Positions 49,066 to 61,699 of a DNA stretch of 64,000 bases are shown here, in pieces. This DNA is from Bacteroidaceae bacterium (GTDB taxonomy: Bacteria; Bacteroidota; Bacteroidia; Bacteroidales; Bacteroidaceae). How positions within the stretch are numbered: position 1 is the stretch's first letter; the number at the start of each line of letters is the position of its first letter. Under the pieces are notes generated by a model. The model was not told where the DNA came from and made no database searches. It saw only the letters and a list, made by a program, of their open reading frames with translations. The stretch spans positions 62,001-126,000 of the forward strand of contig JAFSPM010000018.1 in the NCBI GenBank assembly GCA_017442855.1, in the 5' to 3' direction. The position numbers and the translations under genes were made by a program.

Positions 49066-50409
49066 TTATATTGCTTCTTCGATTATGGTTCGCATCCCTT
49101 TTATCTTTTCACCTGCCACCAATTTGAGCAACTGATTGACTTTCGCCCGTTTGACGGCAATAAAGGCATAATGGTCCTTCACGTCCACCTGCCCTAAGTC
49201 ATTTCTGTCAAGACGACCTTTCTTATAAAAGAAACCCACCACATCCACTTTGTTGAGTTTATCTTTCTTGCCTCGGCCAATATAGATGGTAGCCCATTCC
49301 TGCTTAGGTGGCTTAGGCGTTTCTTCTGGCAATTCATACACGGGAGCATCGGCACCCACATAATCCGGTAGGTGTTCCTCTGGGCCAAGAATCATGTAAG
49401 CGCTTCCAGTGGCATCCCATCGTGCCGTGCGACCATTGCGGTGAGTAAAAGATTCTTCATTGACAGGCAGATGGTAATGGATCACATTGTCTATGCCTGG
49501 GATATCCAACCCACGAGCCGCCAAGTCGGTGGATATCAACACAGGACATGTACCATTGCGGAACTTATAGAGAGACCGTTCACGGTCATCTTGTTCCATA
49601 CCACCATGGAACATGTCACAAGGGAAACGCTTGGCTTGCAAATAGCCCGTCACACGTTCCACACTCTCCCGATAGTTCACAAACACTAGCGACGTCTGGT
49701 TGCCCAACTGACACAACAAACGGTAGAGAGTTTCCAATTTATCTTTTTCGGGAGAAGGCACCACTTGCAGCATTAAGTTAGTAGCACCATAGTTCGACTG
49801 TGAGAAATCCAGTTTGATAACTTTGTTCTTCAGCAGTTTCCCCTCTTCTGTAGTAGCCACTCCCGTAAACTGAGGTATCTCATCGGCATCCGTAGCCGAA
49901 AGCAGTACGCGTTTTCTCAAAGAAGGCAACTGACCAATCACCTCCGACATCTCATCCTGGAAGCCGAACTCCAAACACTTATCAAACTCATCGATGATGA
50001 GTGTCGTCACCGTCTTGGCGTTAAAGTTCCGTTTCTGAAGGTGGTCGTTCATACGACCGGGTGTTCCTACAATAACCTGTGGATGAATGCCGTTCATGGT
50101 ACGATGTTCATCCATTGCCGGACGACCGCCATAGCAACTCATCACCCTGAAAGGTGTTCCCATCTGTTTGAACACTGTCTCTATCTGCAATGCCAATTCT
50201 CGGGAAGGTACCAGCACCACAGCTTGCACATCTTCGTTCTCTGCTTGCAGACGCAACACCAAAGGCAACAAGAAAGCAATGGTCTTGCCCGATCCCGTAG
50301 GCGACAGCAACACCAGATTCTTATCCACGCCATAGGCTTCCAAAGTAGCCAACTGCATGGGGTTCAATTCTTCTATCTTGAGATTTTTCAATATCTCACT
50401 CTGCTCCAT
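49066..50409 (-). CDS. DEAD-box RNA helicase, DbpA-like, with DEFD motif
   Basis: 447 aa from MEQSEILKNLKIEELNPMQL. Q motif LNPMQLATLEAYG, motif I SPTGSGKT, motif II DEFD instead of DEAD, motif III SAT (LLSATDADE), motif IV-VI LVFVNYRESVERVTGYLQ, STDLAARGLD, HRNGRTAR. The C-terminal 75 residues (TIYIGRGKKDKLNKVDVVGF onward) match the DbpA RNA-binding domain, which targets 23S rRNA. It probably acts in ribosome assembly. The first in-frame ATG (50457) is less likely because the family N-terminus begins at 50409. Confidence 0.9.
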   Translation of the reverse strand: MEQSEILKNLKIEELNPMQLATLEAYGVDKNLVLLSPTGSGKTIAFLLPLVLRLQAENEDVQAVVLVPSRELALQIETVFKQMGTPFRVMSCYGGRPAMDEHRTMNGIHPQVIVGTPGRMNDHLQKRNFNAKTVTTLIIDEFDKCLEFGFQDEMSEVIGQLPSLRKRVLLSATDADEIPQFTGVATTEEGKLLKNKVIKLDFSQSNYGATNLMLQVVPSPEKDKLETLYRLLCQLGNQTSLVFVNYRESVERVTGYLQAKRFPCDMFHGGMEQDDRERSLYKFRNGTCPVLISTDLAARGLDIPGIDNVIHYHLPVNEESFTHRNGRTARWDATGSAYMILGPEEHLPDYVGADAPVYELPEETPKPPKQEWATIYIGRGKKDKLNKVDVVGFFYKKGRLDRNDLGQVDVKDHYAFIAVKRAKVNQLLKLVAGEKIKGMRTIIEEAI

Positions 50410-50480
50410 ACCCTCAGTATTTTTTACAAAGATAGTGAAAGATATAGACAAAAACAAATAAGCTAGCTTATTTGTGTTGA

Positions 50481-51293
50481 TTATCTAAGAGTGAGCTCTA
50501 GCAATTGCTCCAACGAACCATGATAGATGTCCAAATCCACTTGTTCCTGGATGCCGGGTACGGTACCGACATCAGTATGTTGCCAGAAGTCCCAGCGTCC
50601 TTGGTATCGCACAGAATCCACATAATAATGAGCAATCCAGTAAGGATAATTATCGAAAAGAGTGTCGTTCAGGTATTTTTCCTTAAACTTATAACTGGCA
50701 TATATGATAGGCTTCACACCATAGTAAGCCTCCACCACATTGAGCCAAGTCTTTACGTTCTGTGCAAATTGTTGCCGATCCTTGTGCTTGGGCGACACCT
50801 CCACATCCAGCACTGGAGGCAGATCACCTGGTTGCAACTGTACCCTGCTGATAAAGTATTGAGCTTGTCTTCGGGCATCGGTAGTAGGAATGAAATAATG
50901 GTAAGCTCCACGCACAAAGCCCCAGTCTTTAGCACGTTGGAAATTCTCTTGGAACGTGTCGTCAGTCAGGTCGCCACCTTCCGTAGCCTTCATAAATAAG
51001 AATCGTAAGGGGAATTCAGGGTCGTTTTGCGTAGTAGCCAAGGTGGGCCAATCCACCACCCCTTGGAAGTGAGAGATGTCAATGCCATGTAACTGATACG
51101 AATAAGGCATGCACACCCCATAGCCCTTGTTGCCATAGCAAGGTTTCCAACGATAGCTGTAGGGATTGACGAAGAAGAAATAGAATGCAACACCAAGTAC
51201 CAGCACAATCCCAATGGCCAGCACATTACGCACCCAAAGAGGTTGCTCCTTGTTGCCTTTCTTCTTTCGTCTTGTTGTTCTTTTCTTCGGCAT
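50481..51293 (-). CDS. GH25 (lysozyme-type) membrane-anchored hydrolase
   Basis: 270 aa. A basic N-terminus (MPKKRTTRRKKKGNK) precedes one membrane helix (about residues 24-45). The GH25 domain shows HGIDISHFQGVVDWPTL with the first Asp, LRFLFMKATEGGDLTDDTF, GFVRGAYHYF and the catalytic DLPPVLDVEVS; it ends RWDFWQHTDVGTVPGIQEQV then DLDIYHG. It should cleave the N-acetylmuramic acid-GlcNAc link of peptidoglycan outside the membrane. A 24-bp gap to 50457 leaves it independent of the helicase. Confidence 0.93.
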   Translation of the reverse strand: MPKKRTTRRKKKGNKEQPLWVRNVLAIGIVLVLGVAFYFFFVNPYSYRWKPCYGNKGYGVCMPYSYQLHGIDISHFQGVVDWPTLATTQNDPEFPLRFLFMKATEGGDLTDDTFQENFQRAKDWGFVRGAYHYFIPTTDARRQAQYFISRVQLQPGDLPPVLDVEVSPKHKDRQQFAQNVKTWLNVVEAYYGVKPIIYASYKFKEKYLNDTLFDNYPYWIAHYYVDSVRYQGRWDFWQHTDVGTVPGIQEQVDLDIYHGSLEQLLELTLR

Positions 51294-59627: not shown

Positions 59628-59765
59628 TTGACAACCCAGGCGATAGCATACCTCCTCATTGGCCTCAACGTCCTCACATTCTTTGTCTATGGCATAGACA
59701 AGTGGAAGGCCAAGCGTGGCAGTTGGCGCATACCAGAAGCCACCTTGCTTATCCTTGCTTACTAG
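59628..59765 (+). pseudogene. Truncated DUF1294 membrane protein gene
   Basis: Starting from TTG the frame reads LTTQAIAYLLIGLNVLTFFV then YGIDKWKAKRGSWRIPEATL and LILAY stop, 45 codons. FFVYGIDKWKAKRGSWRIPE is the DUF1294 signature. Intact members are about 85-120 aa, continuing with a Gly-rich second helix that is absent here. The reading frame ends in the first unit of the 22-bp palindrome array, which has replaced the 3' part. It begins 4 bp after lepA. Confidence 0.75.
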
Positions 59766-59976
59766 TAGTAAACCCATCGCTTACTACTAGTAAACCCACC
59801 GCTTGCTACTAGTAAACTACAAAATTCTCTAGAGAATATTTGGACGAGAACCGTTCTCGCAAGGCACGAGAACCGTTCTCGTTGGCGACGAGCTACGTCC
59901 TCGTTTTTTTTCCTAGTTAGGAAAAAATATTTCCCTAGTTAGGGAACAAGTTTTTGCTAACTAGGCAACCCAGCAA
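59757..59976. repeat. Array of ten palindromes phased at 22 bp
   Basis: Ten consecutive 22-bp units starting at 59757. Dyad centres lie at about 59765, 59787, 59809, 59830.5, 59852, 59874, 59896, 59916.5, 59938.5 and 59961. Cores: TTACTAGTAGTAA, TTACTACTAGTAA, TTGCTACTAGTAA; ATTCTCTAGAGAAT; CGAGAACCGTTCTCG twice, CGAGCTACGTCCTCG; TCCTAGTTAGGA, CCCTAGTTAGGG, TTGCTAACTAGGCAA. Neighbours form subfamilies, but spacing and self-complementarity persist while sequence changes. The seventh unit, followed by eight T, could also act as a terminator for map-lepA. Non-coding. Confidence 0.88.
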
Positions 59977-59978
59977 GC

Positions 59979-60311
59979 TAAAACATGCCGACACTCCACT
60001 TTTTCCACTTAACAAACTCACAATATGTTTGTTAACCCAGTGGAGTGTTTTCCAAACACTCCACCATCACTCCACCATCACTCCACCCCCTCTCCACTGA
60101 AAAACAAGGCCTCAGAATTGACACTATGATACACATATCAATGTAAACTTAGTGTATAGTTGCCCTTCATCCATTAATCCTATCAAATAGTCAATATATG
60201 ATACTCCATGAAAAGTGGAGAGTTAGTGGAGTGTTTGCAAAACACTCCACGCTTCATATTAGTTGGAGTACAGTGTGTTATAGGTAAAAAGTGGAGTGAC
60301 GGCATGTTTTA
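59979..60311. mobile_element. MITE-like element with 26-bp terminal inverted repeats
   Basis: The left end (59979-60004) and right end (60286-60311) are inverted copies over 26 bp with one mismatch: TAAAACATGCCG, a variable base, then CACTCCACTTTTT. The outermost TA on each side could be a TA target duplication. Inside are two hairpins with identical 11-bp arms (GTGGAGTGTTT / AAACACTCCAC, 60040-60064 and 60226-60250) and 11-bp-spaced copies of CACTCCAC (60057, 60068, 60079). No ORF is present. It has the build of a miniature inverted-repeat element, or of an iteron-bearing origin or control region. Confidence 0.7.
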
Positions 60312-60511: not shown

Positions 60512-61699
60512 ATGATTAAAGACCTCTCTAAGGGGCAGACTGCGGTCTATCAGATAGAGTGCTTTCTGCAAGAGAACTACGAGTTTCGCCACAACGTGCT
60601 TAGCGGCAAGGTGGAATTCCGACAAATTACTAATTTCGACCAAGCAGATGAATGGTCGGTTGTTACAGCAAAGGTGATGAACTCCATCGTGCGTAAGGCG
60701 AAAATGGAGTATATCGGCAGAAACTCCCCACGAACCGACATCGAGGAGTATATCAACTCGGATGCCGTGAAGGAGTATGACCCCATCAGTGATTACCTGA
60801 CCCACCTGCCTGAATGGGACGGCAAGAACCATGTGGCCGATTTGTTCAACCGCATTCCCGGACTTACCTCCGAGCAGCTGTCCTGGTGCAGTACCTGGCT
60901 CCGTTCAACAGTGGCCCATTGGCTGGGCCTGGATCATTTGCACGGCAATGAGTGTACACCTATTATGATAGGTCGTCAGGGGTGCGGCAAGACCACCTTT
61001 GCCATGAACCTGCTTCCCCCTGCTTTGCGAACCTACTATCTGGATCATATCAACTTCGGCAATAAGTTTGATGCGGATATGGCATTGACCCACAACCTGC
61101 TGGTAAACATCGACGAGTTTGCCAACATGAAAGGAAGTCAGCAAGGCAAACTGAAGCACACCCTCTCCAGACAGAAAGTAAACGGTCGTCCAATCTTTGG
61201 TAAGACGCAGGAAGACCGCAGGCGCTATGCCTCGTTCCTGGCCACCACCAACGACGAGCAACCGCTTTGCGACCCAACAGGCAGTCGTCGATTTATTTGT
61301 CTGAGGGTGCCCGACAAGATGATGATCGACAATGTGTCGCCCATTGATTACGAGCAACTCTATGCTCAAGTGATGTATGAGATCATTGCCTCGCAAACGC
61401 CCTATTGGTTTACTAATGCCGAAGAGGAGCGCATCCAGCTGATGAACCAGCCCTATATAAAGGAGGAGAGTCTGGAAAACATGCTATCCATTTTCTATAA
61501 GGTGCCTTCAGGGGAGGAAAAAGGCGAATGGCTGAGCTTGGGCCAAGTGATTGAGAGCATGCAAGGAACCTATCCTAAACTAAGGAACGACCATTCCACC
61601 CGCATCAAGATAGGGCTTGCCCTGCGGCAGATGGGGTGTGTGGCCAAAGAAACCAATCGAGGCTTTAAGTATCAGCTGATAGAACTCGAAGCTGCTTGA
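60512..61699 (+). CDS. VapE/VirE-family P-loop ATPase (DUF3874-type)
   Basis: 395 aa. Walker A GRQGCGKTTF (residues 154-163), Walker B LLVNIDEFANM (196-206), and downstream KVNGRPIFGKTQEDRRRYAS, ATTNDEQPLCDPTGSRRF with a likely sensor Asn and Arg finger. The C-terminal part (NDHSTRIKIGLALRQMG) is the DUF3874 end. VapE proteins are primase-helicase-like and are typical of mobile elements and phage-derived islands. In relatives a primase-like BT4734/VirE_N region is fused or adjacent; none is seen here. A strong terminator follows. Confidence 0.85.
   Translation: MIKDLSKGQTAVYQIECFLQENYEFRHNVLSGKVEFRQITNFDQADEWSVVTAKVMNSIVRKAKMEYIGRNSPRTDIEEYINSDAVKEYDPISDYLTHLPEWDGKNHVADLFNRIPGLTSEQLSWCSTWLRSTVAHWLGLDHLHGNECTPIMIGRQGCGKTTFAMNLLPPALRTYYLDHINFGNKFDADMALTHNLLVNIDEFANMKGSQQGKLKHTLSRQKVNGRPIFGKTQEDRRRYASFLATTNDEQPLCDPTGSRRFICLRVPDKMMIDNVSPIDYEQLYAQVMYEIIASQTPYWFTNAEEERIQLMNQPYIKEESLENMLSIFYKVPSGEEKGEWLSLGQVIESMQGTYPKLRNDHSTRIKIGLALRQMGCVAKETNRGFKYQLIELEAA

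Follow-up and report, generated by a model that had tools for sequence, protein, structure and literature searches.

Helically phased tandem protein sites, spaced at 11 or 20-22 bp, are known from plasmid iterons and ParR/parC-type centromere repeats, and the matS, Noc and SlmA sites are palindromic sites situated between genes at tens of copies per chromosome. The arrays described herein share with the plasmid systems the helically phased tandem arrangement, but they are located at many chromosomal loci, and a sequence search with the array of the window (the whole stretch of 64,000 nucleotides analysed) gave no match among 72,556 plasmid records, on which grounds the plasmid iteron reading was rejected. 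From matS, Noc and SlmA, which are single sites, the present arrays differ in being built of 3-6 units in phase, each species having its own arms.

Among described elements, BrickBuilt of Porphyromonas gingivalis (PMC4596501) comes closest, a minisatellite MITE of 23-nt tandem units with IS5-like ends, which is present in 19 copies in ATCC 33277 and varies in unit number between strains; tandem repeats of 22, 23 and 41 nt are also mentioned there for P. gingivalis W83. The present arrays resemble BrickBuilt in coming from a related bacterial group and in being intergenic, dispersed and built of tandem units, and the tandem organization with variable copy number that marks such a MITE was indeed found. 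BrickBuilt is, however, described there with a 23-nt unit, one repeat family, a leader, a tail and IS5-like terminal repeats, whereas the present arrays have a 22-bp unit, combine many unrelated arms in one register, conserve the arms while leaving the cores free, and showed no terminal repeats at the few loci read. In REP elements the end of the stem bears a GTAG or CGTC tag (PMC3733652), and the REP/BIME systems with RAYT (PMC2817692, PMC3733652) are likewise dispersed intergenic palindromes in mosaic combinations, such as were found here in ten arrays and a second mosaic set of the draft genome from which the window is taken (G000). The present arrays differ from these systems in the strict 22-bp phase, in the several arm types and in that a Y1 transposase is not required in the genomes searched: PF01797 (Y1/RAYT) was above cut-off in only 3 of 16 genomes searched and was not found in G000 (80% complete), G056 and G121, all three of which bear arrays, so that the RAYT transposase was rejected as the driver. 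Judged by repeat geometry, CRISPR (24-48 bp repeats with unique spacers, accompanied by cas genes) was rejected as well, the conserved parts of the arrays being 5 bp long and 4-7 bp apart, and so was a known RNA family, for Rfam 15 gave nothing above the gathering score (the best of 8 sub-threshold matches was 23.1 bits versus 56). As explanations, then, REP/RAYT, MITE, plasmid iterons and Rfam families fit poorly, and our literature search, which left subscription journals and preprints outside, found no description of phased arrays with varying arms in this genus.

Ten phased dyads between lepA and a VapE-like gene

The window array (59757-59968) consists of ten dyads centred at 59765, 59787, 59809, 59830.5, 59852, 59874, ~59896, 59916.5, 59938.5 and ~59960, all determined by the dyad scan except that of unit 7 (~59896), which was set by eye from the sequence. 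Each unit is laid out as two 5-bp arms in inverted orientation that enclose a core of 6-7 bp, plus a short linker. Three units are of type A (GCTTACTAGTAGTAAAC), namely unit 1 (59757..59773, with the dyad GCTTACTAGTAGTAAAC), unit 2 (59779..59795) and unit 3 (59801..59817), and are followed by one unit of type B (AAATTCTCTAGAGAATATT), unit 4 (59821..59840, dyad AAAATTCTCTAGAGAATATT). Two units of type C (ACGAGAACCGTTCTCGT) come next, unit 5 (59844..59860, dyad ACGAGAACCGTTCTCG) and unit 6 (59866..59882, a perfect dyad of 17 bp), together with one unit of type C' (ACGAGCTACGTCCTCGT), unit 7 (59888..59904), which retains the arms around an asymmetric core and was placed from the sequence, the dyad scan putting it 1.5 bp leftward. 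The array ends with three units of type D (TTTTCCTAGTTAGGAAAA), unit 8 (59908..59925, dyad TTTTCCTAGTTAGGAAAA), unit 9 (59931..59946) and unit 10 (59952..59968), the last in the opposite orientation; the dyads of units 3, 7 and 10 are imperfect.

As a chain of six phased dyads the array scored 38, compared with maxima of 24 among 500 local dinucleotide shuffles and of 26 among ten shuffles of the entire 64 kb, and for chains of eight units, scanned at periods from 14 to 26, the score was 41 at period 22, 38 at period 21 and at most 27 elsewhere. The original prediction of ten non-randomly phased palindromes at about 22 bp was thus confirmed, and the equally phased dyads in shuffled DNA that would have spoken against it did not appear. 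The strict constant is indeed the spacing, which stays within 20.5-22.5 bp even at the borders between sequence types. The further proposal that symmetry is conserved but sequence is not holds only between types, since A, B, C and D have no sequence in common; within one type the sequence of the outer arms is conserved, the middle varies, and there is little compensation. Symmetric covariation in A-type cores was weak when compared with shuffles, one of three inner pairs standing above them, and the summed test over 69 distinct A-type cores was not significant (P = 0.11).

The array is situated between lepA and a VapE-like gene on the forward strand (60512..61699; Pfam PF05272). Between the array and this gene, and outside the 22-bp register, the sequence includes a module, herein called E (59991..60110), of ~11-bp tandem repeats (CACTCCAC/CACTCCACCAT) plus an inverted copy; 11-bp tandem repeats (CACTCCACCAT) with inverted copies are also present at 60220-60257, and modules resembling E adjoin other arrays and, in L198, a VapE gene. 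Module E may represent regulatory or replication repeats of a VapE cassette. Genes with the VapE domain (PF05272) are located downstream of three of the ten arrays in G000, and in another genome, G102, a related but non-identical array at a different locus precedes a VapE gene 77% identical to that of the window. A link of the array to lepA was rejected: lepA was matched in 149 of 158 genomes, and among 29 such loci read in other genomes (L075-L103; ~1.5 kb per side), six of which encode LepA 97-99% identical, none carries a phased array, indicating that the window copy was either gained here or lost elsewhere. At the intergenic place orthologous to 50350-50560 of the window, genome G092 carries three A-type units and an extra gene absent in G000 (L201:5690-6680).

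Dispersed arrays in one genome and across the genus

In G000 (2.76 Mb in 49 contigs), pattern searches identified ten array loci, located on contigs C6 (the window), C12, C14, C15 (two arrays), C28, C31, C37, C44 and C47; the list is made of exact or near-exact motif matches, and ten is possibly fewer than the true total. The order A-B-C-D, on either strand and in one register of ~22 bp, was observed in six of the ten, i.e., the window, C12, C15 near 143.5 kb (with additional A-like units ahead of D), C31, C44 and C47, while the order is rearranged in two (C15 near 80 kb and C28) and type A stands alone in two (C37, and C14 close to the contig end). The register is mostly continuous across the changes of type. 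When units were chosen by one exact arm, the partner arm was found in place, with a mean of 3.7 of 5 for type A, 4.2 for C and 3.8 for B; for type D the partner arm fits better one base farther (3.21 versus 2.75), indicating that D cores are not uniformly 6 bp. A second mosaic of unlike palindromes, of the types GCAGTATCTGC, GGAAGCTTTCC and GCAAGCTTTAGC, is also present in G000 in the same 22-bp register (L157:18718-18960, L162:18770-18990 and L167:19476-19674).

An orthologue was found for only one of the G000 arrays, that of C47, and for the window array none was found. The C47 array and the C18 array of G102 lie inside a 1.8-kb patch that is 95.5-99.5% identical and takes in parts of both flanking genes (L073:5200-7200 versus L196, from the hemN end through the array to the VapE start), while the rest of the two loci is mostly 74-95% identical. 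Such a profile of identity is evidently the mark of recombination between species, and the patch is too similar to be informative, so that identity between these two arrays was rejected as evidence for selection.

A BLAST search with the window array (E <= 0.01) over 158 genomes of the genus gave matches in 31 of them, mainly via type D. Arm searches over the same genomes, in which the gap between two units was left free from 0 to 30, detected the two-unit pattern of GYTTA N7 TAARC in 28 genomes (reversed control, 1) and that of GTTTC N7 GAAAC in 54 (reversed control, 6, which may represent arrays of another arm). Among the matches listed, the spacing was 22 or 44 bp for GYTTA, and 22 or 44 bp, but also 21 or 45 bp, for GTTTC.

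For detection of tandem repeats without a given motif, Tandem Repeats Finder (score >= 45) was applied to sampled stretches of five genomes. Period 22 gave 35 rows in 400 kb of G082, with 1, 13, 1 and 4 at periods 20, 21, 23 and 24, and 15 rows in 400 kb of G000, with 0, 5, 0 and 1, respectively; in 100 kb each, G154 gave 7 and G056 gave 4 (period 23 also 4), and 200 kb of G121 gave 5 at period 22 and 8 at period 24, among which several are coding-type by eye. Period 22 is thus commoner than 20, 21, 23 and 24 in all of the five genomes except G121, and no repeat of this period was detected in 50 kb of E. coli or in shuffles. Alternating inverted 5-mers of any sequence peaked at a period of 21-23 in four of the five genomes and were fewer outside this range, with period-22 clusters numbering 6 in G082, 5 in G154, 4 in G056, 3 in G121 and 0 in the 400-kb sample of G000, and none in E. 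coli and shuffles. Dyads are not universal in period-22 repeats, since a run of at least five pairs is contained in 41% of 54 non-coding ones. By letter shuffle, 13% of period-22 repeats were individually significant versus 14% for other periods, and a stronger dyad excess at period 22 was accordingly rejected. The samples of these five genomes also contain many non-coding tandem repeats with a period of 7, 14 or 21 (e.g., AATGGAGAATTGAT).

A C-type array was found in one Prevotella MAG (L036). In two Portnoybacteria MAGs, two closely placed palindromes of the GAGAACCGTTCTC type were matched, one MAG contributing five contigs and the other a single contig (L035, L038-L042). Furthermore, 39 contigs labelled as viral (L304-L342) match two-unit arm patterns, 13 by GTTTC and 26 by GTTTA, in runs of 2-4 units spaced at 21 bp in 23 contigs and at 22 bp in 16, with none at 23 bp although this was permitted. 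The class of arrays may extend beyond the genus, though some of these matches could come from coding repeats or from bacterial DNA. The description 'chromosomal only' was dropped because of these contigs. The phage search gave a single match, a partial one over 26% of its query at 78%.

Arms and cores of orthologous GTTTA arrays

The test for selection employed the GTTTA arrays in which three related species (G007, G079 and G087) are rich, and not the window copy; orthologues were paired by their flanks with the arrays masked, and sites at 30-120 bp from the array served as flank. All nine of the G007 arrays fetched have an orthologue among the G079 loci, and seven of the nine have one among the listed G087 loci. 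Between G007 and G079, changes were observed at 0 of 380 arm sites, 27 of 266 core sites, 22 of 145 linker sites and 218 of 1544 flank sites, and arm-identical 5-mers outside the arrays were changed at 5 of 75 sites. Between G007 and G087 the corresponding values were 3/290 for arms, 30/203 for cores, 17/110 for linkers and 224/1202 for flanks, with changes at 6 of 67 sites in arm-identical 5-mers outside arrays, and over 18 alignments, pooled although non-independent, 3 of 740 arm sites were changed versus 70 of 518 core sites. Loci were picked in every species by a minimum of two exact units side by side, and this ascertainment favours intact arms; with arm drift at the flank rate of ~14%, however, a pair of neighbouring units (20 sites) would stay intact at only ~5% per position, and the recovery of nine out of nine is therefore unexpected. 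Linker bases adjoining the arms changed less (2/56 and 5/56) than those in the middle (16/56 and 14/56), which suggests that the true half-site may be ~7 bp long, CAGTTTA.

Judged from these alignments, arms and phase of the GTTTA arrays are evidently retained by selection while the cores drift. The original prediction that selection keeps the dyads was correct in these species as far as the arms are concerned, and decay of the dyads as neutral sequence is contradicted there. By likeness of architecture, the same would apply to the types of the window array.

Array length changes by whole units. In the 18 alignments there were no gapped unit positions and two 22-nt insertions inside arrays, compared with 159 gapped flank sites, and one of the insertions (L226 versus L241), where G079 has two copies of a 22-bp unit that is single in G007, is best read as a unit duplication. 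Between G154 and G056, which are ~97% identical, one GTTTC array has about six units versus two and one D array has two units versus apparently three, while another array is identical. Ordinary duplication and loss of units would thus be sufficient to explain the length of arrays, and the need for a copying process regenerating inverted symmetry, which the original prediction gave as one alternative, is not supported.

Putative half-site strips and competing explanations

Inverted half-sites that are conserved, cores that are free and a spacing that is fixed are what a dimeric DNA-binding protein needs, and we consider it probable, at roughly 0.58, that the arrays are strips of helically phased inverted half-sites for one or more putative sequence-specific DNA-binding proteins, acting presumably at the level of DNA rather than RNA. 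With 22 bp being about two helical turns, half-sites of one type would lie on one face of DNA, and dimers of the putative protein would sit side by side along the strip. The arrays would be lengthened or shortened by tandem duplication or deletion of whole units, after which cores and linkers would drift while selection holds arms and length, and the distinct arm types (A-D here; GTTTA, GTTTC and others in relatives) would serve different or diverged proteins on a common lattice. The same-face protein sites of the original prediction are the best-fitting reading. As for the biological role, nucleoid organization or the insulation of neighbouring transcription units is our guess. A more elaborate form, which we regard as tentative and rather doubtful, supposes many unrelated arms, each with its own protein of one family, on a common genus-wide 22-bp lattice, where a filament of mixed specificity would mark or insulate intergenic boundaries and arms would switch between species while the pitch stays fixed.

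The gene context is softly compatible with a boundary element. In 11 orthologue groups, the flanking genes as determined from third-position changes are co-directional in nine, divergent in one and convergent in one, while plain ORF calling at 31 loci gave 14 convergent, nine co-directional, six divergent and two unclear cases; the plain ORF calls are unreliable, as they disagree with the third-position substitutions. Among 25 period-22 clusters in G082, 15 are located between co-directional ORFs, one between convergent and none between divergent ORFs, and nine within ORFs, several of them short and probably spurious.

The co-directional context in 9 of 11 orthologous arrays agrees also with the idea that the arrays work in transcripts, as a chain of hairpins or a long rod, e.g., for mRNA protection or termination between co-directional genes. 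Folding lends it further support, because every one of ten inputs, drawn from seven array stretches of which three were folded on both strands, folded better than its shuffles did on average (z between -3.0 and -9.6) and nine of the ten were unmatched by any shuffle. We nevertheless hold it to be improbable: the arms are near-invariant and compensating pairs are rare, a single GTTTA unit makes a weak hairpin, the different mix of contexts from ORF calls alone makes the context evidence soft, and the orientation relative to the neighbouring genes varies by locus, the window array running from A to D with its genes and the C47 array from D to A. The little compensation and the opposite directions of arrays argue against RNA stems.

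Slightly less probable still are functionless minisatellites, in which a mutational process specific to the genus would yield 22-bp tandem duplications with incidental dyads. The two whole-unit insertions, the difference in copy number between species 97% identical and the occurrence of period 22 also without dyads all agree with such a process, but cores and linkers change at about the flank rate while arms are almost unchanged, array length changes only by 22, and homogenization driven by conversion would remove the core differences as well. For the GTTTA arrays this explanation is already disfavoured. Spreading of 22-bp palindromic units as a mosaic of mobile REP/BIME- or MITE-type modules, with a transposase acting in trans, we consider quite unlikely; the intergenic, dispersed and mosaic arrangement, the unit variants common to different loci and species, and the VapE genes beside three of ten arrays and at the other locus in G102 are in its favour, but the Y1/RAYT domain is infrequent as noted above, neither terminal repeats nor target duplications showed up at the few loci read, and the orthologous placement of all nine G007 arrays in G079 is unlike an active element. 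The inverted arms around a variable core of 6-7 bp may resemble the core site of a recombinase, and some cores are present in both orientations, yet tandem sites for a site-specific recombinase, with array changes as its products, are very improbable given the short arms and the array positions stable between species.

If the arrays are indeed half-site strips, much of the repeat DNA between the genes of a major gut genus would be functional and read by putative DNA-binding proteins, and the spacing rule would be so simple that every site could be detected computationally. The selected arms beside drifting cores would then offer an internal control for experiments on binding, deletion and evolution.

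The distribution along one chromosome was noted for genome G066, of which the origin was put near 1.5 Mb from GC3 skew in 20 sampled stretches. On its contig C1 (L269-L283 and others), 22 of the 26 listed GTTTC array loci are located within 1.7 Mb of the origin, and 8 of 58 GTTTC matches, outside this list, are located elsewhere on the chromosome. This clustering near the origin is suggestive, and a difference between core and acquired regions may be an alternative cause.
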